IMG/VR virus record: IMGVR_UViG_3300025769_000714
Coordinates: 1 to 26,253 of that record
Origin: a virus
Reading direction: 5' to 3' (one strand)
Length of the DNA stretch: 26,253 nt
Positions within the stretch are counted from its first letter, which is position 1, and every line of letters starts with the position of its first letter. Shown here piece after piece: positions 13,768 to 26,011 of the stretch. Both the position numbers and the translations under genes were made by a program. The notes beneath the pieces were generated by a model. It was not told where the DNA came from and did no database searches. It saw nothing but the letters and a program-made list of their open reading frames with translations.

Positions 13768-14277
13768 TTGTCAAATAATGATGTACTTTTAATCTTATCG
13801 AACCACCAAAAGGAATGGGAAATAATAACAGAAAAATTATTGTTTTCTACTTCTAAGTTAAAAGCTGGTGATATAGTACAAGATATGTACATAAAAGTAT
13901 TTGATGATCTAACTAAAGATAAAATTAAGCCTGATGAAATAATAAGAGATAATAAGCCTCATTTTGGAATTGTTAAAAACATACTTAAAAGAACAATACA
14001 AGTTAAAAGTAAATTAGAAAAACGTCATTTAAGTATTGATCAATTACATAAAGAAATAGAACATAAAGATATAGATGAAATAGATGTTAATATAGAAGAT
14101 AAGGTTGATGCAGTATTAAATGAAATGTATTGGTTTGATAGAAAACTATTTAATTTATATAGAAAAGAGTTTCACAGTATTAGGTCATTAAGTAAGGCTA
14201 CAAAGATTAGCCATGTAACAGTTTATAAAACAATAGCTAAATGCAAAAAACTAATAGCAAGAAAAGTAAAACTATAA
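13768..14277 (+). CDS. Sigma-factor-like transcription regulator (ECF/gp55-size)
   Basis: 169 residues from TTG 13768; the next in-frame Met is residue 40, inside the conserved part. Residues about 33-48 (AGDIVQDMYIKVFDDL) match the sigma region 2 helix that contacts core polymerase and the -10 element (compare DLVQEVFLRVW in ECF sigmas). Residues about 135-165 (HSIRSLSKATKISHVTVYKTIAKCKKLI) form a region-4-like HTH. The length matches the T4 late sigma gp55 class. Its place before the terminase and tail genes fits a switch to late transcription. It could instead be a polymerase-binding regulator without promoter recognition. Confidence 0.65.
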   Translation: MSNNDVLLILSNHQKEWEIITEKLLFSTSKLKAGDIVQDMYIKVFDDLTKDKIKPDEIIRDNKPHFGIVKNILKRTIQVKSKLEKRHLSIDQLHKEIEHKDIDEIDVNIEDKVDAVLNEMYWFDRKLFNLYRKEFHSIRSLSKATKISHVTVYKTIAKCKKLIARKVKL

Positions 14278-16531: not shown

Positions 16532-16548
16532 CTTTTTTTAAATTTGTA

Positions 16549-16585
16549 TATAACACTAACACTATAAAACTACATTACTATTATG
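16549..16585 (+). promoter_or_regulatory. Late leader motif copy A (TATAACAC-N14-TACATTACTATTATG)
   Basis: In the 51-nt gap after terL, TATAACAC 16549-16556 and TACATTACTATTATG 16571-16585 (ending with the chaperone ATG) stand with the same spacing as two other copies (24905 and 25369). A TAAATTTG element (16539-16546) lies just before. Candidate late promoter plus conserved initiation region. Confidence 0.55.
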
Positions 16586-17218
16586 AAGATTGAATTATCA
16601 ATACCAGAATCTTTAAAAGAAATTACATTAGCTCAATATCAAAAGTGGGTTAAGATTATAGAGAATGAAGAAGTATCTACTTTCTTTCAGCAGAAGATGA
16701 TAGAGATTTTCTGCAATGCTAAACTTGAAACAGTTCTACAAATGAAGGTTAAAGATGTTGATGAAGTAACACAACATATAGATAACCTATTTAATGAAAA
16801 GCCTGATTTTATACCTACATTTATTTTAAACGATATTGAGTATGGTTTTATTCCTCAGCTTGATGAAATGACTTTTGGAGAATATATTGATTTAGATTCA
16901 TATTTAGCAGATTGGCAAACAATGAGTAAAGCAATGACTGTATTATTCAGGCCCATTAAATACAAGCGAAAAGATAAGTACTTAATTGAAGATTATGAAA
17001 GTGCTGATAAATATAATTTATCTGGAATGCCTTTAAACGTAGTAATGGGTGCTTTAGTTTTTTTTTGCAATTTAAAAAGCGAGTTACAAAAACATATCCT
17101 GAGCTATTTGAAAACTCAGGATTCAGTGGTAATTCCACAAGAGCTGAAGGATTCGCTAGCAAGTGGAATTGGTATCAATCTGTTTACTCCTTATCAAAGG
17201 GAAATATTAGAGAATTAG
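16583..17218 (+). CDS. Tail assembly chaperone, zero-frame product (G-like)
   Basis: 211 residues. It resembles the short chaperone made from tail-chaperone genes in Bacteroidota siphoviruses: MKIELSIPESLKEITLAQYQKW at the start, IEYGFIPQLDEMTFGEYIDLDSY (about 93-115), then YNLSGMPLNVVMGALVFFCNL (about 148-168). Codons 160 and 161 are TTT TTT in a T9 run, from which a -1 slip leads to the next entry. The last 50 residues lie in DNA that codes in both frames. Such proteins coat the tape measure during tail assembly and leave before completion. The start is in late leader copy A. Confidence 0.7.
   Translation: MKIELSIPESLKEITLAQYQKWVKIIENEEVSTFFQQKMIEIFCNAKLETVLQMKVKDVDEVTQHIDNLFNEKPDFIPTFILNDIEYGFIPQLDEMTFGEYIDLDSYLADWQTMSKAMTVLFRPIKYKRKDKYLIEDYESADKYNLSGMPLNVVMGALVFFCNLKSELQKHILSYLKTQDSVVIPQELKDSLASGIGINLFTPYQREILEN
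17058..17066 (+). other. -1 ribosomal frameshift site (T9, heptamer T_TTT_TTT)
   Basis: Nine T's at 17058-17066. The zero frame reads GTT TTT TTT TGC, so T_TTT_TTT at 17059-17065 is a canonical X_XXY_YYZ slippery heptamer. After a -1 slip the next codon is 17065-17067. An 8-bp hairpin ATCCTGAG 17096-17103 / CTCAGGAT 17115-17122 starts about 30 nt downstream, farther than usual for a stimulator. RNA polymerase slippage on T9 would give the same frame. Confidence 0.65.
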
Positions 17219-17322
17219 ATAAAGTAACAAGAATAAACGTGCATAAGTGTTTAACCATGTTAGCATTTGAAAAAGATAAAATGCAGTTAGAAAATGATAT
17301 AATGAAAAGAGCAAGAAGATGA
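17065..17322 (+). CDS. Tail assembly chaperone, -1 frame extension (GT-like)
   Basis: Open in the -1 frame and read as an 85-residue extension of the first 161 residues of the chaperone, giving about 246 residues. The segment FASKWNWYQSVYSLSKGNIRELDKVTRINVHKCLTMLAFEKDK has the pattern of the T part of G/GT chaperones (kW.Wy..iy.L..gd....d.v......L..l...kdk). There is no ATG near its 5' end; only a TTG at 17065. In lambda the GT form recruits the tail tube protein to the tape measure. The 3' end overlaps the next gene by ATGA. Confidence 0.65.
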   Translation: MQFKKRVTKTYPELFENSGFSGNSTRAEGFASKWNWYQSVYSLSKGNIRELDKVTRINVHKCLTMLAFEKDKMQLENDIMKRARR

Positions 17323-17774
17323 ATAGTTTTTTTAGAGTAATAGATAAAATCAAAGATGCTGTAAGTGCTGAACCTTTTAACAATGAAGTAACTTTTGGTA
17401 ATATAGGAGATATAGATTTAAGCAAACAGAGTTTATTTCCTTTAGCTCATATAACTGTTAACAATGCTACCATAACAGAAAATTTAGTTCAGCATAATAT
17501 GACTGTATTTTTTATGGATTTAGTAGATATTAATAATGCTGAAGATATTAACGCATTTTTAGGTAATGACAACACACAAGAAATTTTAAATACTCAATTA
17601 GCACTTGCAACAAGAGTATTAAGAGTATTACAAAAAGGTGATGCTTTTAGAGATCAATTTGAAATTGAAGGTGCTGCTGGTTGTGAACCTTTTGAAGATA
17701 GATTCCAAAACCATCTTGCTGGTTGGGCTGTTACTTTTACTATTAACACTTATGATAATATGACTTATTGCTAA
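17319..17774 (+). CDS. Tail completion/terminator-like protein
   Basis: 151 residues. FFRVIDKIKDAVSAEPFNNEVTFGNIGDIDLSKQSLFPLAHITVNNATI followed by FFMDLVDI and ILNTQLALATRVLRVLQKGD resembles the alpha/beta tail-terminator or completion proteins of Bacteroidota siphoviruses. The ending WAVTFTINTYDNMTYC is also typical. It lies between the chaperone gene and the gp10-like gene. Which end of the tail it caps cannot be told. Confidence 0.55.
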   Translation: MNSFFRVIDKIKDAVSAEPFNNEVTFGNIGDIDLSKQSLFPLAHITVNNATITENLVQHNMTVFFMDLVDINNAEDINAFLGNDNTQEILNTQLALATRVLRVLQKGDAFRDQFEIEGAAGCEPFEDRFQNHLAGWAVTFTINTYDNMTYC

Positions 17775-18313
17775 TGGGAGAATTTGAAAAGGCATTAGAT
17801 AAATACGCTAAGTATGTTATTCAGCAAGCACGAACTAATCTTACTAAAGGTTATCCACCTTACGGTACTAAAAATGCTTCAACGAATTTATATAATAGTT
17901 TGAGCTATTATGTAGATGATGGAACTGTTTTTTTTGAAATGCTTGATTATGCACCTTTTGTAGATGAAGGTGTTAGAGGTAAAAATCCAAAAGGTTTACC
18001 AAAAAGCTCAAAGTGGTATGGAAAACAGAAAGCTCCTTTTTCTGATTATAAGTTTGGAACTAAAAGTGGTGCTAAAGGTGGGTTAACAAGAGGTTTAGAT
18101 AAATGGATAATTAGAAAAGGAATAGCACCAAGAGATAAAGAAGGTAAATTTATGAGCAGAAAAACATTAAAATATTTAATGGCTCGAAGTATATATTTAT
18201 CAGGTATTAGGCCAACCTATTTTTTCTCTAAACCTTTTGAAAGAGGCTGGATTAAATATAGTGATGAAATGGTTTTAGGTTTTATGGATGATAATTTAAA
18301 TATAGAAGAATGA
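17774..18313 (+). CDS. HK97 gp10-like head-tail/tail completion protein
   Basis: 179 residues from ATG 17774, which overlaps the previous stop as TAATG (a TTG two codons earlier is possible). EKALDKYAKYVIQQARTNLTKG is the N-terminal helix of gp10-like proteins; LYNSLSYYVDDGTVFFEMLDYAPFVDEGVRGKNP is the beta core with the characteristic YAPFVDEG. A Gly/Lys-rich insert (about 70-105) and a C-terminal segment with RPTYFFSKPFERGW follow. It helps to join or finish the tail. Confidence 0.7.
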   Translation: MGEFEKALDKYAKYVIQQARTNLTKGYPPYGTKNASTNLYNSLSYYVDDGTVFFEMLDYAPFVDEGVRGKNPKGLPKSSKWYGKQKAPFSDYKFGTKSGAKGGLTRGLDKWIIRKGIAPRDKEGKFMSRKTLKYLMARSIYLSGIRPTYFFSKPFERGWIKYSDEMVLGFMDDNLNIEE

Positions 18314-19359
18314 GTACATTGAGTTTAACAAGAAGCCCAAGATATATAAGAACAGCAAGTTTTACTAATGCTACTTATTTTAAATTAGAGCTTTATATTT
18401 TTACTGGTGTTATAGGTGATAAGCCAGCAACAGCAACTTATACATTAAATAAAGATGTTATTAATAATGAAACTTCAGTAACATTTGAAATAAATGAGCT
18501 GGTAAGAGATTATTATGAAGTTAATTTTAATGGTACTTATACTTCAAGTGCTGGCCAAGTGTTATGGATTATTGCAGATGTTACACCTTTTTCTGCTACT
18601 GCTGTTGGTACATTAGTTTCAACAACTTTTTTAGCTTTTGATGGTTATACTAATTTTAAAGATAATGCTAATTTTAATTATATAGAACCAGCATTAGTAA
18701 CAGCTTCAGCAATTCAAGTTTTAGATACTGATTATGCTATTATACCAGTAAATGCAGAAATAGCAGAAACGGTAAACTTTAAGTTAAATGGTGTTACTGT
18801 TAGTACTCATTCTATTACTGATAATGGCAACACTAACCAAAAAATACAATACATAACAAGCACAGTTTTAAATGTTGATCAAGTAGATGTTGTTTATGAT
18901 TCAGGTACAAGAACTCAAACCTTCACAATAGAACTTATTGATGAATGTAAATATCCAGTTAATAAAGTAGTATTCTTAAATAAATTAGGTGCTTTACAAA
19001 ACTTATATTTCTTTAAAAAATCTGCTGAAAATTTAGATGTTAAAAGAGATGTATTTCAAAGAAACTTATTAAATGAAGTAGCTTTAACTTATGATGTTTT
19101 TGACCACCAAAGTAAGAATTTTAATATAATGGGTAATGAAAGCATTGTTCTAAATACTGGTTATGTATTAGAAGCCATGAATGACAGCTTCAAAGAATTG
19201 TTACTAAGTCAATATGTTTGGATGCTTAGAGGTGCTGTTACTTATCCAATGAATGTAAAAGATAGCAATATAGCTTACAAAACTGCTTTAAATGATAGGT
19301 TAATAAATTACACTATTAACTTTTCTTATTCTTTTGATACTATTAATAATGTTCATTAA
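18310..19359 (+). CDS. Tail structural protein, beta-rich (349 aa)
   Basis: Overlaps the preceding gene by ATGA. SLTRSPRYIRTASFTNATYFKLELYIFTG and FEINELVRDYYEVNF (about 59-73) are typical for a group of beta-rich tail/baseplate proteins in Bacteroidota phages. The central part (about 110-210) has Ig-like strands; the C-terminal half contains NKVVFLNKLGALQNLYFFKKSAE. It could be a tail-tip or tube component; the major tail tube protein has not otherwise been found in this window. Confidence 0.5.
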   Translation: MSTLSLTRSPRYIRTASFTNATYFKLELYIFTGVIGDKPATATYTLNKDVINNETSVTFEINELVRDYYEVNFNGTYTSSAGQVLWIIADVTPFSATAVGTLVSTTFLAFDGYTNFKDNANFNYIEPALVTASAIQVLDTDYAIIPVNAEIAETVNFKLNGVTVSTHSITDNGNTNQKIQYITSTVLNVDQVDVVYDSGTRTQTFTIELIDECKYPVNKVVFLNKLGALQNLYFFKKSAENLDVKRDVFQRNLLNEVALTYDVFDHQSKNFNIMGNESIVLNTGYVLEAMNDSFKELLLSQYVWMLRGAVTYPMNVKDSNIAYKTALNDRLINYTINFSYSFDTINNVH

Positions 19360-21584
19360 TGCAAGAATTAATAATATATATACAACCTCAGCAAAGAGAT
19401 AGAGTAGAGCAAGATTACGTTAAAGTAGATTTGTTAAATGATGAAAATGTTAGCTTAACTCAAGTCATTCAAGATATTAGAGATATAGATAAGGTGTTTA
19501 CTGATTATAGCAGAACCTTTAATTTGCCAGCAAGCTCTAAGAACAACAAACTATTTCAACATTGGTATAATCCTGATATTGATGGTTTTGATGCTAACAT
19601 ACAAAGTAATGCTAAGATTGAATTAAACTACCAACCATTTAGAGAGGGTAAAGTTAAACTTCAAGAGGTTACAATGAAAGATAATAAACCTCATACTTAC
19701 AAGATTACTTTCTTCGGCAAAACTGTTAGCCTTAACAATTTATTTGGAGAAGATAAGCTTAACAACTTAGTTTGGATGGATAATTTCAGTTATCAGGCTT
19801 TAAGTTCTAATGTGTTAGCTGGTTTATCTCTTGGCTTAGATTTTACTGTTAGTAGTGTAAGTTATACAGATGCTATTATACATCCTTTAATTTCACATAG
19901 TGAAAGATATATTTATGATAGTGCTGGTAATTTAACTGATTCAGGAAATATTTCAACAGCATCTACAAACAATACTCAAAGAGGTGTTTTACCTGAAGAT
20001 TTAAAACCAGCAATAAAAGCAAGCTTAATAGTTAAGGCAATAGAACAGCAGTATAATATTAACTTTAAATCAAGTGAATTTTTTGATAGTACAGAGTTTA
20101 GTAATGTTTATTTATGGTTGCATAGAGATAAGGGAAAAATAGAAAGTAAGAATTCTATTATTTTAGATTCAACAGCTTTTACTTGTGGTGGAAATCCTTC
20201 TACTGGAAGTGATGGCCCAAGTGCAATAGTGCCTTCTTCTAATTTATGTGCTTTATATACTGCTGCACCTACTCAATTTATAAATGGAGTTTATAAGATA
20301 ACTAAAACTACAAATTTTGCTACTGATAACTATGATTTTTTCTTTGATGTTTCTATAAATGCTGCAACTGGTTTTACTTCTGTGCCTTATGATATTATTA
20401 TTTATGATTCATTAACTGGAGATCAATTAGCTTTTAAAGGGAATAATACGGGTAATAGTAGTAAGCAAATTTTATTAGATACAGCTTCAAATCCTATGGC
20501 AATAGGAGAAAGTAAAAATATTACTTGTAGAATAGAAACCATAGCAGCTTTTGAGTTTTTAGCAACAATTACAGTAGGTCAAACAGTAACAATAACAGTA
20601 GGCACACCATTAACTGATAGATGTTTTTTTGTTTCTAACTCTTCTAATGTGCCAGTAGCAATAGATTATATAAGGCCAACTGAGCAAGTGCCTGATATTA
20701 AAGTTCTTGATTTTCTTAAAGGTTTGTTTAAGATGTTTAACTTAACTGCTTTTTTAAATTCAGATAATGAAATAGTAGTTAAAACTTTAAATGATTTTTA
20801 TGGAGATAGCACAACAACACACAATTTAACAGAATATGTAGAAAAAAACCAACATACTGTTGGCGAAGCTTTACCATTTAGCAGCATTAGTTTTAATTTT
20901 CCTGAACCTAAAACAAAACTTGCACAAGCATTTTTAAACCTAAATAATTTAGAATATGGGAGTTTAGATTTTATAGCAGATGCAAGTCAAAGTAATAAAT
21001 ACGAAATAATTTCTCCTTTTGGTCATATGCTTTACGAAAGATTACCTGATTTAACAACTGGTACTAATACAGAAATACAATATGGATTAAGTGTTGATAG
21101 TGATGGTAATTCTGTTGTTGGTTCACCTTTGCTGTTTTATGGTATTTATAATACAAGCATTAGCACAGCTATAAACTATGTAGATAGTACAAGGCCTACT
21201 GCTGGTGGTTTAGTACCAGTAGGCACAAGAACTACAATTACTAATTATTGGATGCCACATAATGCAAATGAGTTAGGAAGTGTTTCAACAGCTCCAGCTT
21301 ATAATCTTAATTTTGGTAGTGAGATAAACAGCTATACTTTAACAGATTATGGGGGGAATAATAATAGCCTATTTCAGAAGTTTTATCAATCTTATATTCA
21401 AAGAGTATTTAACACTAAAACAAGAATATTTAAATTTAAAGCAGTATTGCCGTTGAAATTCTTATTAACTTATAGTTTAGCTGATAAAGTATTTATTTCA
21501 GGTAAAGCATATACTATTAATAAAATAACTACTGATTTACAAACTGGTAGAAGTACATTAGAACTATTAAACGAACCAAGCTAA
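19359..21584 (+). CDS. Large tail/baseplate protein (741 aa)
   Basis: N-terminus IYIQPQQRDRVEQDYVKVDLLNDENVSLTQVIQDIRDIDKVFTDYSRTFNLPASSKNNKLF marks a conserved group of distal tail proteins in Bacteroidota phages. DYSRTFNLPAS followed by a transport through beta domains (about 80-180, 240-420) and KVLDFLKGLFKMFNLTAF (about 450-467) recalls tail-hub proteins. The C-terminus ends with ADKVFISGKAYTINKITTDLQTGRSTLELLN, a domain found at the end of several hub proteins. The first base overlaps its predecessor. Role at the tail tip is inferred. Confidence 0.6.
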   Translation: MQELIIYIQPQQRDRVEQDYVKVDLLNDENVSLTQVIQDIRDIDKVFTDYSRTFNLPASSKNNKLFQHWYNPDIDGFDANIQSNAKIELNYQPFREGKVKLQEVTMKDNKPHTYKITFFGKTVSLNNLFGEDKLNNLVWMDNFSYQALSSNVLAGLSLGLDFTVSSVSYTDAIIHPLISHSERYIYDSAGNLTDSGNISTASTNNTQRGVLPEDLKPAIKASLIVKAIEQQYNINFKSSEFFDSTEFSNVYLWLHRDKGKIESKNSIILDSTAFTCGGNPSTGSDGPSAIVPSSNLCALYTAAPTQFINGVYKITKTTNFATDNYDFFFDVSINAATGFTSVPYDIIIYDSLTGDQLAFKGNNTGNSSKQILLDTASNPMAIGESKNITCRIETIAAFEFLATITVGQTVTITVGTPLTDRCFFVSNSSNVPVAIDYIRPTEQVPDIKVLDFLKGLFKMFNLTAFLNSDNEIVVKTLNDFYGDSTTTHNLTEYVEKNQHTVGEALPFSSISFNFPEPKTKLAQAFLNLNNLEYGSLDFIADASQSNKYEIISPFGHMLYERLPDLTTGTNTEIQYGLSVDSDGNSVVGSPLLFYGIYNTSISTAINYVDSTRPTAGGLVPVGTRTTITNYWMPHNANELGSVSTAPAYNLNFGSEINSYTLTDYGGNNNSLFQKFYQSYIQRVFNTKTRIFKFKAVLPLKFLLTYSLADKVFISGKAYTINKITTDLQTGRSTLELLNEPS

Positions 21585-21737
21585 ATGAAAACAATAATAG
21601 AAGCATTAGAGTTTATAAAAGAGATTAAAGCATACGATAAAAATATTATTATTGCTTTAGGAGTTAACAAAGTAGCACTAACATTTAAAGAAGGTTTTTA
21701 CATTAAAAAATTAGAAAATAAACTCAAGGAATTATGA
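21585..21737 (+). CDS. Small protein before the tape measure, 50 aa
   Basis: ATG 21585 directly follows the preceding TAA; TGA 21735-21737 overlaps the tape-measure ATG (ATGA). The protein is helical and charged (MKTIIEALEFIKEIKAYDK...KKLENKLKEL). No family recognised; coupling at both ends shows it is very probably translated. Confidence 0.6.
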   Translation: MKTIIEALEFIKEIKAYDKNIIIALGVNKVALTFKEGFYIKKLENKLKEL

Positions 21738-23650
21738 TTAAAAAGGAGTTAAATGCTAAAATGAATATTGAAACAGCTAAAGCATTGAAAGATGTTAAAA
21801 AGCTGGATAAGAGTATTCAAGGTGTGCCTAATAGTATAAAGGATGCTGAACAGCAAACAGGTAAATTAAACAAAGGGTTAAAGGCAACTGATAAAACTGC
21901 TGGTGGTGTTAGAGGTGCAATTAATAAAATAGGGTTAGCTTTTAAAGCTGCTGGTATTGGTTTAATTATTACTGCCTTTGCTAAGTTAACAGAATTGTTT
22001 CAAACTAACCAAAGGGTTATGGATGCCTTTAATGTTATAGGTGAAACGACAACAATAATATTTAATGATTTATTCAATGCTATTTTTAATACTGCTGATG
22101 AATTAGGAAAAGCAAATGATGGTTTTAATGCTATGGGTAAAATCGTAGATTCAGTTATTACAATTGCACTAACACCATTGAAGCTAACTTTTAACGCAAT
22201 TAAAGCAGCGGTTCTAGGTGCACAATTAGCATGGGAATCTTCTTTTCTTGGTGATGGCGATCCTGAAACTATAAAGGAATTAAAAGCATCATTAGCAGAA
22301 ACTGGTGAAGATGTGCTTCAAGTTGGTAAAGATTTAGGCGGTGCTTATGTAGATATTTTTAATAATGTACGTGAAGCAGCAGGAGAAATAACAGAATTTA
22401 CAACAACAGCAATAGGTAAAATATCTGAAATAGATATTAAATCAAGTATTGCTAGAGCAAAGGCAAATGTAGAGCTTGCAAAAGCAGCAGAGATAGCAAG
22501 AGTACAACAACAAGGTTTAGTTGAGCAATACGATAGAGAAGCAGAAAAACTAAGGCAAGTTAGAGATGAAGAAAGAAATACTATTGCTGAAAGAATACAA
22601 GCTAATGATGATTTAAAAGCTGTTCTTGATGAACAAGAGGAAGCTATGCTAAAGCAAGTTGATTTACAAATTAGGCAAGCACAAGCACAACACGACTTAA
22701 ATGGAACGCAAGAAAGTTTAATAGCATTATTAGAAGCACAAAATGAAAAAACAGCAGTATTAGCACAAATAGAAGGTTTTAGAAGTGAGCAGAAAGCAAA
22801 CGATTTAGCATTAAGTAAAGAGCAACTTGAACTTGAACAAACTATAAAAGATGCAACAGCAGAAAGAACAATTAACGAATTAAACGCAAACGCTGAATTA
22901 ATTAAAGGTGATGAAGAACGAATTTTAAAACAACTTGAAAACCTTGAGATTGAAAGAGGCATAGAAGAACAAAGGTTAACCCTAAAAAGAGATTCTTATA
23001 AACAAGATACTCAAGCTTATGTAGATTCTCAAATTGAGTTAGAAAATTTCATATCAGAATCTAATATTAGAAAAGCTACTTTAGATAATGAACTAACACA
23101 AGCAAGGTTAGAAAATAAGAAAAAAGAAGATGAAATAGAACAGCAAAAAATAGATGGAGTAAAAAACACTTTAACTACAATAGCTAATTTAGCTCAACTC
23201 TTTGCTGGTGAAAGTGAAAAAGAACAAAAGAAAGCTTTTAAAATTCAGAAGGCTGCCAACATAGCACAAGCATTAATTGATACTTATGCAAGTGCAACAG
23301 CAGCTTATAAATCTTTAGTAGGTGTACCAGTAGTAGGCCCAGCATTAGGTATAGCAGCAGCAGCTGCAGCGGTTACTGGTGGTTTGTTAAATGTAAAACA
23401 GATTCAGGCAACAGAATTTCAAGGATCAAGTTCAAGTGGTGGTGGTGGTGGTACTTCACCTTCTTATTCTTCAACTGGTGCAACACAACAAGCACCTGAT
23501 TTTAATATAGTAGGGCAAAGTGGATTTAATCAAATTGCAACTGCTTTAGGCCAAAACAACAATACACCAGTTAAAGCTTATGTAGTTAGTGGTGATGTAA
23601 CAACAGCACAAGCATTAGAAAACAATATAATAGATACAGCAACATTTTAA
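21734..23650 (+). CDS. Tape measure protein
   Basis: 638 residues. The N-terminus KDVKKLDKSIQGVPNSIKDAEQQTGKLNKGL is typical, then a hydrophobic part GLAFKAAGIGLIITAFAKLTELF (about 67-90), a very long Ala/Glu/Gln coiled coil (about 225-510), a second hydrophobic segment VPVVGPALGIAAAAAAVTGGLL (about 528-549) and a Ser/Gly-rich stretch (about 563-580). The protein sets tail length; at about 1.5 A per residue this would be roughly 95 nm, an inference. An antisense frame in the coiled-coil part is a composition shadow. Confidence 0.85.
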   Translation: MIKKELNAKMNIETAKALKDVKKLDKSIQGVPNSIKDAEQQTGKLNKGLKATDKTAGGVRGAINKIGLAFKAAGIGLIITAFAKLTELFQTNQRVMDAFNVIGETTTIIFNDLFNAIFNTADELGKANDGFNAMGKIVDSVITIALTPLKLTFNAIKAAVLGAQLAWESSFLGDGDPETIKELKASLAETGEDVLQVGKDLGGAYVDIFNNVREAAGEITEFTTTAIGKISEIDIKSSIARAKANVELAKAAEIARVQQQGLVEQYDREAEKLRQVRDEERNTIAERIQANDDLKAVLDEQEEAMLKQVDLQIRQAQAQHDLNGTQESLIALLEAQNEKTAVLAQIEGFRSEQKANDLALSKEQLELEQTIKDATAERTINELNANAELIKGDEERILKQLENLEIERGIEEQRLTLKRDSYKQDTQAYVDSQIELENFISESNIRKATLDNELTQARLENKKKEDEIEQQKIDGVKNTLTTIANLAQLFAGESEKEQKKAFKIQKAANIAQALIDTYASATAAYKSLVGVPVVGPALGIAAAAAAVTGGLLNVKQIQATEFQGSSSSGGGGGTSPSYSSTGATQQAPDFNIVGQSGFNQIATALGQNNNTPVKAYVVSGDVTTAQALENNIIDTATF

Positions 23651-23662
23651 AAAATAGAAACA

Positions 23663-24268
23663 ATGAAAATAATAGAACTTTTAATAGATGAAGAAAACGA
23701 AGTAAATGGAATCGAAGCGGTGAGTTTAGTATCTGCTGGAGCAATAGAATCAGATTTCATAAGTTTAAATTCTCAGGAAATTAAGTTAGCTAAAGTAAAT
23801 GATGAAAAACAAATACTTATGGGAGCTGCTTTAATTCCTAATAAACCAATTTTTAGAAAAGGTGATGATGAAGATTACTATGTTTATTTTAGTAATGAAA
23901 CAGTTAGAAAAGCTTCTGAATTATTCTTTAAAAATGGCAATCAAAACAACGCAACCTTAGAACATAATTTAGATATTAATAATTTAACAGTAGTTGAAAG
24001 TTGGATAGTAGAAAATACTGAAAAAGATAAATCAGCTATTTACGGTTTAGATGTACCTGTTGGTACTTGGATGATATCAATGAAAGTTAACAATTCTGAA
24101 ATATGGAATGATTTTGTAAAAACAGGAAAAGTAAAAGGATTTTCTATTGAAGGTTACTTTGCAGATAAAGCAACTATTCAAGCAAGTAAAGATGAAAGCG
24201 AAATAGAAGCACTTAAAAAAATAGAAGAAATTAAAAATCTATTTACTAAAAAAAAAAGATTAGTTTAG
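23663..24268 (+). CDS. XkdF-like prohead serine protease, zero-frame product
   Basis: 201 residues. The order KQILMGAALIPNKPIFRKG (49-67), TVRKASELFFKNGNQNNATLEHN (80-102, H101) and VKGFSIEGYF (157-166, S161) matches the XkdF/S78-type maturation proteases, with His and Ser as catalytic residues. It would cut scaffold and capsid precursors during head maturation, and two head genes downstream suit this. Near its end is an A10 run from which a -1 slip would extend the protein (next entries); the zero-frame product has a basic end TKKKRLV. Confidence 0.75.
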   Translation: MKIIELLIDEENEVNGIEAVSLVSAGAIESDFISLNSQEIKLAKVNDEKQILMGAALIPNKPIFRKGDDEDYYVYFSNETVRKASELFFKNGNQNNATLEHNLDINNLTVVESWIVENTEKDKSAIYGLDVPVGTWMISMKVNNSEIWNDFVKTGKVKGFSIEGYFADKATIQASKDESEIEALKKIEEIKNLFTKKKRLV

Positions 24269-24279
24269 AAAGCTTTTCT
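24248..24279 (+). other. Candidate -1 frameshift site (A10, heptamer A_AAA_AAA) with small hairpin
   Basis: Ten A's at 24248-24257. The protease frame reads AAA AAA AAA AGA, so A_AAA_AAA at 24250-24256 is a slippery heptamer. A 5-bp hairpin AGAAA 24267-24271 / TTTCT 24275-24279 begins 10 nt after it. A -1 slip, or one extra A made by polymerase slippage, opens the downstream frame. A sequencing indel in A10 is the main alternative. Confidence 0.5.
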
Positions 24280-24741
24280 GATTATCCTGATTCAGTAAGC
24301 AACAATGCTAAAAGAGGTATTGAACTTAACGAAAAAGTTAATAATAAATGTGCTACTCAAGTTGGAAAAGTAAGGGCACAACAATTAGCAAAAGGTGAAG
24401 CAGTTAGTGTAGATACGATTAAAAGAATGTATAGCTATTTATCAAGAGCAGAAGAATACTATAATGAAGGAGATACTAAAGCGTGTGGAACTATTTCTTA
24501 TTTATTGTGGGGTGGTAAATCTGCTTTAGGTTGGAGTAAAAGCAAACTTAAAGAACTTGGTGAAATAGATTTAGCTTCTATGGTTATAGATGATGATTTT
24601 GCTGTTATAGATGATCGGTTAGCTTATAGCACACAAGAGAAAGCAGAAGAGATAGCTAAGAACATAGGTTGTAAAGGTTATCATACTCACGAATTTGAAA
24701 ATAAAACTTGGTATATGCCATGTGAAAAACATATAAATTAA
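24256..24741 (+). CDS. C-terminal extension of the protease, reached by -1 frameshift (or separate broken ORF)
   Basis: In the -1 frame the DNA is open from 24250 to TAA 24739-24741. From 24256 it gives 161 residues: YPDSVSNNAKRGIELNEKVN, KCATQVGKVRAQQLAKGE, IKRMYSYLSRAEEYYNEGDTKACGTISYLLWGG, and a final GCKGYHTHEFENKTWYMPC. These domains usually stand fused to XkdF-type proteases or related head proteins in Bacteroidota phages. The first ATG (24427) would delete half of the first domain, and only an ATT (24259) offers an upstream start. A fused product would have about 359 residues (198 + 161). C and H residues at the end may bind metal. Confidence 0.6.
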   Translation, partial: KISLESFSDYPDSVSNNAKRGIELNEKVNNKCATQVGKVRAQQLAKGEAVSVDTIKRMYSYLSRAEEYYNEGDTKACGTISYLLWGGKSALGWSKSKLKELGEIDLASMVIDDDFAVIDDRLAYSTQEKAEEIAKNIGCKGYHTHEFENKTWYMPCEKHIN

Positions 24742-24746
24742 TAATT

Positions 24747-24896
24747 ATGAGAAATAAAATTAAAAGAGGTGAAAAAAGCAGAACCTCACCAAGAGCTGGA
24801 AGCAGAAAAGGTTGTTTATGTGATGATGGTACTTATAAAACTAAATGCTGTAATGGTACACTAAGGGCTCAAGGTGTAGGAAAAACACAAGCATAA
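24747..24896 (+). CDS. Cys-rich small head-region protein, 49 aa
   Basis: ATG 24747 to TAA 24894-24896. Basic N-terminus and GCLCDDGTYKTKCCNGTLRAQGVG, a C-x-C...CC motif that I know from small proteins between head genes in flavobacterial phages. The four cysteines could bind zinc. It is too short to appear in routine gene calls but the motif makes it convincing. Function unknown. Confidence 0.65.
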   Translation: MRNKIKRGEKSRTSPRAGSRKGCLCDDGTYKTKCCNGTLRAQGVGKTQA

Positions 24897-24904
24897 AAAA
24901 AAGG

Positions 24905-24941
24905 TATAACAATAATTAATAAATAATACATTACTATTATG
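24905..24941 (+). promoter_or_regulatory. Late leader motif copy B
   Basis: TATAACAA 24905-24912, 14 nt, then TACATTACTATTATG 24927-24941, ending with the ATG of the coiled-coil gene. It is preceded by A8GG (24895-24904), as in copy C. Same spacing as copies A and C. Confidence 0.55.
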
Positions 24942-25355
24942 AAAACATTAGAAACGATTTACAAAAAACTTAATTCAGTAGAGAAAACTGAGTTAGAAAC
25001 TCATAAAGTAGAATTATCAGATATAGAAGATTTAAAAAAAATATTAAATAAATCAAAACAAATTATAAAAGAAATTAAAAGTTTTGAAAATAAAATAAAA
25101 AGTGAACAAAAAACACTTAGAAAAGCAGTAGGTGATTATAACTCTTTGTCAAACAAACTTGATGAAATGGAAAAAGAAAAATCGCCATTATATTCGCAAA
25201 TGGTTAAACTTATGGATAAAATTAAAATAACCGCCAAAGAATTAGGGGTTAATGCTAATTCAATAGATGGTATGCAAGATGCAATAAAGCTGCAAGATGA
25301 AATGAGTAAAAGAAGTGCATTTGGTGGTGAAGCAGATTTAATGTTTATGAGTTAA
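24939..25355 (+). CDS. Coiled-coil protein of the head module, 138 aa
   Basis: Starts within late leader copy B. Helical and highly charged (LETIYKKLNSVEKTELETHKVELSDIEDLKKIL, long coiled coil about 40-100), ending GGEADLMFMS. Similar proteins stand before scaffold and capsid genes in related phages, where their function is not known. It may be a scaffold partner or head-assembly chaperone; no membrane or catalytic motif. Confidence 0.6.
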   Translation: MKTLETIYKKLNSVEKTELETHKVELSDIEDLKKILNKSKQIIKEIKSFENKIKSEQKTLRKAVGDYNSLSNKLDEMEKEKSPLYSQMVKLMDKIKITAKELGVNANSIDGMQDAIKLQDEMSKRSAFGGEADLMFMS

Positions 25356-25368
25356 TTAAAAAAAAAGG

Positions 25369-25405
25369 TATAACACTTTAATAATAAAATTACATTACTA
25401 TTATG
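25369..25405 (+). promoter_or_regulatory. Late leader motif copy C
   Basis: TATAACAC 25369-25376, 14 nt, then TACATTACTATTATG 25391-25405, ending with the ATG of the scaffold-like gene, and preceded by A9GG. The TATAACAC octamer and spacing equal copy A. Confidence 0.55.
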
Positions 25406-26011
25406 AAAGCAAACGAAGTATTAAACAAAATCAAATCCATAGTAGGTGTAGAACTAACTGAAGAAGTTAATCTTGCCGAAATGAAATTACAGAACGGTAC
25501 TGTTGTAGAAGCTGAAAAATTCGAAAAAGGCGAAGCAGTATTTATTAAATCAGATGATGAAAAAATAGCACTTCCAGTAGGAGAATATATCCTTGAAGAT
25601 GGAAGGTTATTAGTAGTTGAAGAAGAGGGTTTAATAGCAGATATGAGAGATGTATCTGATGATGTACCAGCTAAAGAAGAAGAAATGGCAGAAGAGAAGA
25701 AAGAGGAGAAAGAAGATATGATGCCAGATGATGAAGCAGCAGTTTATGACTGGGCTGGAATGGAAAAAAGAATTAAAAATTTAGAAATAGCTGTTGCTAA
25801 ACTTAAAGAAGCCAAAGAAGGTGGAGATACAGAAGTTGAAGCAGCTAAAGAAGAAGTTAAAGAAGAATTGTCAACTGAAGTTGAGCTTTCTACTGAAACA
25901 CCTGAACCAATTAAACATTCTCCAGAGATCAAAGAAGAAGGATTTAAAATAAATAAATCAAATTATCCTAAAACTTTACAACAGAGAATTTACCAAAAAT
26001 TAAATAATTAA
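25403..26011 (+). CDS. Scaffold-like head assembly protein, 202 aa
   Basis: Residues 1-75 form a beta-rich part (ANEVLNKIKSIVGVELTEE, ALPVGEYILEDGRLLVVEEEGLIADM). An extremely acidic, Lys/Glu-rich middle (about 88-160) with coiled-coil character follows, and a basic C-terminus (INKSNYPKTLQQRIYQKLNN). The acidic coiled-coil design and place directly before the capsid gene fit a scaffolding protein that is cut by the upstream protease. The beginning is within late leader copy C. Confidence 0.6.
   Translation: MKANEVLNKIKSIVGVELTEEVNLAEMKLQNGTVVEAEKFEKGEAVFIKSDDEKIALPVGEYILEDGRLLVVEEEGLIADMRDVSDDVPAKEEEMAEEKKEEKEDMMPDDEAAVYDWAGMEKRIKNLEIAVAKLKEAKEGGDTEVEAAKEEVKEELSTEVELSTETPEPIKHSPEIKEEGFKINKSNYPKTLQQRIYQKLNN

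Follow-up and report, generated by a model that had tools for sequence, protein, structure and literature searches.

The late promoters of phage T4 (TATAAATA) consist of a -10 box only, and gp55, the sigma-like protein that reads them, lacks a sigma4 domain. A closer precedent is Salmonella phage 7-11, whose late promoters, GTAAtg-16-aCTA, have been proven to be read by the phage's own sigma factor, SaPh711_gp47, with transcription beginning 6 to 9 bp after the -10 box (PMC8948821). In Bacteroidota, translation initiation favours A at positions -3, -6 and -12/-13 (PMC6847099); in Flavobacterium, a CGT -10 box marks ECF promoters, such as the SM6 class of F. psychrophilum, a species in which leaderless mRNAs amount to 5.5% (PMC9723704). 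We have analysed a 26,253-nucleotide stretch of viral DNA (IMG/VR record IMGVR_UViG_3300025769_000714, positions 1 to 26,253), referred to here as the window, together with its relatives. A virus family of marine flavobacteria appears to turn on its structural genes via a two-part signal that is read by its own small sigma factor.

A bipartite motif in the window

A first-pass annotation of this DNA had described three exact copies of a bipartite motif, and this description was borne out: TATAACA(C/A)-N14-TACATTACTATTATG occurs without mismatch at 16549-16585, 24905-24941 and 25369-25405, and 100 shuffles of the sequence yielded no match. No further copies were found in the window, on either strand, when up to three mismatches were allowed, and the 15-mer next to the ATG has exact matches at these three places only; TATAAC by itself is unspecific, with 36 occurrences in the window. 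The fixed unit could be refined to TATAAC-N16-TACATTA. The ORF table gives leaders of 51, 42 and 47 nt for the three genes, in agreement with the 42 to 51 nt originally claimed. The motif copies and the genes behind them are as follows.

16549..16554, + strand: putative -35 element TATAAC, tail-module promoter (motif search, clade patterns)
16571..16577, + strand: putative -10 element TACATTA, tail-module promoter (motif search, clade patterns)
about 16583, + strand: predicted transcription start, tail-module promoter (from the geometry of phage 7-11, PMC8948821)
16583..17218, + strand: first tail-module gene, PHROG 32199, function unknown in PHROG (ORF table, PHROG match)
24905..24910, + strand: putative -35 element TATAAC, coiled-coil gene promoter (motif search, clade patterns)
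24927..24933, + strand: putative -10 element TACATTA, coiled-coil gene promoter (motif search, clade patterns)
about 24939, + strand: predicted transcription start, coiled-coil gene promoter
24939..25355, + strand: coiled-coil protein gene (coiled-coil call, weak virion-protein match)
25369..25374, + strand: putative -35 element TATAAC, scaffold promoter (motif search, clade patterns)
25391..25397, + strand: putative -10 element TACATTA, scaffold promoter (motif search, clade patterns)
about 25403, + strand: predicted transcription start, scaffold promoter
25403..26011, + strand: scaffold-like gene (C-terminal half of PHROG 24921)

The gene labels in the annotation fared unevenly: "scaffold-like" stood, through PHROG 24921, as did "coiled-coil", now joined by the weak virion-protein match, whereas "tail chaperone" found no support, the gene at 16583 matching a PHROG of unknown function. 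The C-terminal half of PHROG 24921 matches the gene at 25403 and its N-terminal half matches the gene at 23663, which resembles a prohead protease; this arrangement is consistent with a scaffold role for the gene at 25403, directly downstream of which lies a probable major capsid gene (26018 onward).

Several other features of this record were observed. PHROG 24921 unites protease and scaffold in one protein, and the window has them as separate genes (23663-24265 and 25403-26008) with a putative promoter between. The protease ORF (23663-24268) is interrupted where the reading frame shifts within ten consecutive A residues (24248-24257); because relatives mostly have a single ORF of about 290 to 400 aa across this region, the frameshift is either an assembly error or a mutation. 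A contig that is 99.7% identical to the window, L004, connects its end to its start and supplies roughly 1.6 kb that the window lacks between capsid and portal genes, which implies a circular or permuted genome of about 28 kb. In a scan of a genome collection, one short contig of a Winogradskyella assembly was matched, which at most hints at the host.

The motif across relatives

In the relatives, motif places were listed by the first box (TATAAC) alone and the second box was then checked. Recurrence of the motif in related phages had been proposed as a check on the late promoter idea, and clade-specific versions were indeed found in 27 relatives, including the cultured Nonlabens phages P12024L and P12024S. 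These versions lie on the coding strand and, with few exceptions, ahead of structural-module genes.

Clade A: TATAAC-N16-TACATTA
Clade B: CATTTATA
Clade C: CGTTTATA
Clade D: TATATC-N16-CG[AG]NTTA
Clade E: (A/G)TAACAA..TATTGTA
Clade F: GTATAA..CGTTATA
P12024L and P12024S: AAAACA-N16/17-CGTTAAT

These patterns share their geometry, and matches on the reverse strand are almost nonexistent. The first box differs again in genome G028, and the C of the -10 box sits 2 nt further down in clade A than in clades B to D. There are one to three sites per genome in clades A to D, F and G, four to six in clade E, and six or seven in each of P12024L and P12024S; they are located ahead of the tail module, the scaffold or capsid module, the protease gene, tail genes and packaging genes. 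An additional site that would serve packaging genes is present in clades C and E and in the P12024 phages; in clades A, B and D, the search turned up no motif ahead of the terminase genes. In genome scans with clade matrices, the sites scored 17 to 34 bits and the next best match, further true sites aside, at most 14.7 bits, a gap that is somewhat flattering since the matrices were trained on the same sites. Of 57 distinct tail-gene leaders, 23 have an intrinsic-terminator-like hairpin directly upstream of the first box, an arrangement to be expected at points where transcription begins anew. In six relatives (G007, G008, G017 and G021 to G023), the large subunit of the terminase aligns over just part of the protein, at about 30% identity, while its neighbours are well conserved, which suggests gene exchange.

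In the window, the second box touches the ATG, so that the window alone cannot separate a promoter from a translation signal. The distinction comes from ten scaffold leaders in two clades, where the ATG is found at offset 46 to 54 from the start of the first box, not at 34; the second box stays at offset 22 (N16 after TATAAC) in all ten, despite an ATG that has moved by 12 to 20 nt. Together with a further copy inside the sigma gene of clade C, this constancy ties the two boxes to each other as one unit at the DNA level. The distance from box start to box start, 22 nt (6 + 16), is that of the -35 and -10 elements of a promoter, and a bipartite -35/-10 promoter, TATAAC-N16-TACATTA, is the most fitting interpretation of the motif, in preference to a T4-like box plus a translation signal. 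The suggestion that the ATG-proximal 15-mer acts separately in translation is not upheld, as it keeps its 16-nt distance to the first box even where the ATG is displaced and, in one clade, also occurs inside a coding sequence.

The copy within the clade C sigma gene reads TAT AAC GAT TCT TTA AAT AAA GCG TTT ATA TAT and is located as follows.

G011, 9841: putative embedded late promoter in the sigma gene
G012, 18451: the same
G013, 27384: the same
G014, 10662: the same
G018, 4362: the same
G020, 4518: the same

All 13 distinct clade C sigma genes keep TAT AAC and NCG TTT ATA TAT, including every box base at a wobble position. Mean synonymous diversity across these 13 genes is 0.30 outside the embedded site, and among 59 stretches of the same shape only one has synonymous diversity as low as the site, namely the site itself. 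An NCG codon occurs once per gene, at this site only; GCG accounts for just 6% of Ala codons and TCG for 2% of Ser codons. Where Ser has replaced Ala at the site, the CG is retained. The motif is under selection at the nucleotide level. An in-frame ATG that follows the putative embedded promoter would give a 97-residue C-terminal fragment with sigma4.

The best-surviving alternative, which we nevertheless consider improbable, is that TATAAC is a single T4-like late -10 box, with a start about 13 nt downstream, and that the second box, next to the start codon, belongs to the leader or serves translation. The first box does contain TATA, the second touches the ATG in most copies, and the window copies have A at -3 and -6, as favoured in Bacteroidota initiation; however, this explanation is at odds with the ten leaders with a displaced ATG, in which the second box holds its offset of 22, and with the second box that lies within sigma coding sequence in clade C, as well as with a first box that is AAAACA in P12024L and P12024S and different again in G028. 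The window's candidate reader also has a sigma4 domain, which gp55 does not. The T4 analogy of the first-pass annotation (a single -10 box and a sigma factor without region 4) is not supported, on two of the same counts, the sigma4 domain and a second box that keeps its distance to the first.

The candidate sigma factor

The predicted reader of the bipartite promoter is encoded upstream of the tail module.

13768..14277, + strand: phage-encoded ECF-like sigma factor gene, TTG start (AF2 model, structure matches, PHROG 1740)

In the AF2 model, two well-predicted helical domains, corresponding to sigma2 (about residues 1 to 86) and sigma4 (about residues 106 to 169), are separated by a low-confidence linker (87 to 105). 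ECF sigma factors were the top structure matches over the whole length, with Escherichia coli sigmaE first and AlgU also present, at Z-scores near 10, which are modest for helical proteins. The modelled sigma4 aligns with region 4 of sigmaE in its complex with -35 DNA at an rmsd of 2.1 over 63, and the modelled sigma2 with SigR at an rmsd of 2.4 over 72. The protein is thus predicted to fold like an ECF sigma factor, and the order and length of its domains in the model fit the ECF layout of sigma2, linker and sigma4 with neither sigma1.1 nor sigma3. A sequence profile of the protein compared with solved structures gave no clear sigma match, whereas the fold comparison did give one. Of 43 homologues, 41 match PHROG 1740 ("RNA polymerase sigma factor") and 6 weakly match Pfam Sigma70_r2 (best E value, 0.004), a profile that is above the cut-off for P12024L gp35; matches to NUMOD1/HTH are as common as these weak sigma-70 matches.

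A homologue is present in all long relatives examined (26 of 26 genomes in the distance comparison and 9 of 9 in another set) and lies upstream of the terminase in close relatives. A near-identity search of phage records with the window's late region gave no match. A tblastn search of phage records with the sigma protein gave none either, and the link to P12024 gp35 is therefore made through its identical gene position, its annotation in P12024L as sigma-70 region 2 and a profile match (E value, 8e-6). As to whether the motif follows the sigma gene across genomes, the gene is there in every long relative examined; four genomes (G024 to G026 and G031) have it with no motif recognised, and an ATG-anchored comparison of these yielded no convincing promoter.

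Box distance correlates with sigma distance (r = 0.78; partial correlation given the tail protein, 0.36; 0 of 5,000 permutations; 26 genomes), a joint divergence that stems from a few clades that are not independent, so that it constitutes support, not proof. Clade D, which has TATATC for TATAAC, has ISYK instead of ISHV in the sigma4 recognition helix, and region 2.4 differs between the clades with CA and those with CG at -10. From these comparisons, the box and sigma sequences appear to diverge together between lineages.

Such divergence bears on the proposal that the host reads the motif, either by sigmaA (-33 TTTG and -7 TAnnTTTG) or by a host ECF sigma factor. One feature is relevant here.

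16539..16546, + strand: TAAATTTG, match to the host sigmaA -7 box TAnnTTTG (consensus from PMC6847099)

This match lies directly upstream of the tail-module -35 element and is conserved across clade A and in much of clade C, and Flavobacterium does have ECF promoters with a CGT -10 box (PMC9723704). The -7 box is absent at the other two copies, however, no -33 TTTG was seen at about 19 to 21 nt from the -7 box at the motif copies, which do not show the combined sigmaA pattern of Bacteroidota, and the box sequences vary by phage clade and follow the phage sigma, whose gene is always present. Host reading of the motif is thus very unlikely, and TAAATTTG is possibly a second, host-read promoter at the tail module. 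Least credible of all is a conserved element of another role, such as a site for a phage repressor or packaging protein or a single-subunit RNA polymerase promoter: few, highly conserved copies are also seen with the latter (Xp10, PMC4331800), but the strict orientation and position before structural-module genes, the -35/-10 spacing, the terminators directly upstream and the lack of an RNA polymerase match among the larger window proteins, which were scanned, all weigh against it.

Computation has shown the motif with its constant spacing, the fold of the sigma factor, the co-occurrence and co-divergence of the two, and nucleotide-level selection on the motif, and we regard it as highly probable that the three copies are ECF-type late promoters read by the phage sigma factor (13768-14277). 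The central proposal of the first-pass annotation, late promoters served by a sigma factor of the phage's own, is supported by the position of the motif before structural-module genes in relatives and by the sigma gene in all long relatives examined. The factor would be made at the end of the early/middle gene block and would join the host core RNA polymerase; sigma4 would read the -35 box TATAAC, and sigma2 the -10 box TACATTA 16 bp on. Transcription would start about 6 nt past the -10 box, at the ATG or within about 2 nt of it, from the promoter at 16549 into the tail module and from those at 24905 and 25369 into the coiled-coil, scaffold and capsid genes, presumably late in infection. The start spacing of phage 7-11 (PMC8948821), applied here, predicts a start at offset 33 to 37 from the first box, and the ATG lies at offset 32 to 37 in 70 of 82 sites (in 6 of the 70, this ATG is an internal Met codon at the embedded site). 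With such starts, most late mRNAs would have no leader or one of at most 2 to 3 nt, and in most relatives the layout would give nearly leaderless late mRNAs, probably translated as such. If the starts do fall on the ATG, these phages would have a leaderless regulon in a bacterial group whose own mRNAs are rarely leaderless. We see equal reason to accept and to doubt the broader reading, in which the whole phage group expresses its structural genes from mRNAs with little or no leader, their start dictated by a phage ECF-like sigma factor, and the clade C packaging-gene late promoter lies inside the sigma gene, the codons of which are then constrained by the very site that the factor recognises.

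Comparison with known systems

The analysis provides exact predicted promoters, a reader and start sites for a cultured phage (P12024L or P12024S); in P12024L, the predicted late starts fall within about 2 nt of the ATGs at 179, 3031, 5412, 22090, 24771, 26011 and 27612. The clades represent natural, jointly diverged sigma/promoter pairs, useful for studying how small sigma factors read DNA. They could also supply Bacteroidota, in which E. coli promoters fail, with separate promoter systems. In our literature searches, in which subscription journals were little covered, no description of this system was found among work on phage-encoded sigma factors in Bacteroidetes phages, and no paper was found on late-gene timing in tailed phages of marine flavobacteria.

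As in T4, a phage sigma-like protein would switch on the late genes, and the box is TATA-like in some clades; unlike T4, with its single -10 box and a reader that lacks sigma4, the present system has two boxes and a sigma4 domain. Cellular ECF promoters likewise use a two-domain sigma factor, and clades C, D, F and P12024 have a CGT- or CG-type -10 box. SigmaW has an AAC-type -35 element, which the -35 of the motif resembles. In contrast to cellular ECF systems, the factor here is a phage gene, beside which no anti-sigma gene was noticed, and its predicted targets are late structural genes instead of a stress regulon. The phiEco32 factor gp36, which acts at middle/late promoters, directs host polymerase to late genes, as we propose here, but it uses a single element, tAATGTAtA, and has no homology to region 4 (PMC8948821, PMC4331800).

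Phage 7-11 shares with these phages a phage sigma factor with region 4 and a few bipartite late promoters that have a fixed 16-bp spacer and lie before late genes, and in our set the motif and the sigma gene are found in the same genomes. The phage lineage, host phylum and box sequences are different, and neither an embedded site in the sigma gene nor a leaderless layout is mentioned in the parts consulted (PMC8948821). By analogy, the system would work like that of phage 7-11, as a variant in a different phage group; the kind is already known, and the novelty appears to lie in these members, in what they recognise, in the leaderless layout and in the site inside the sigma gene.
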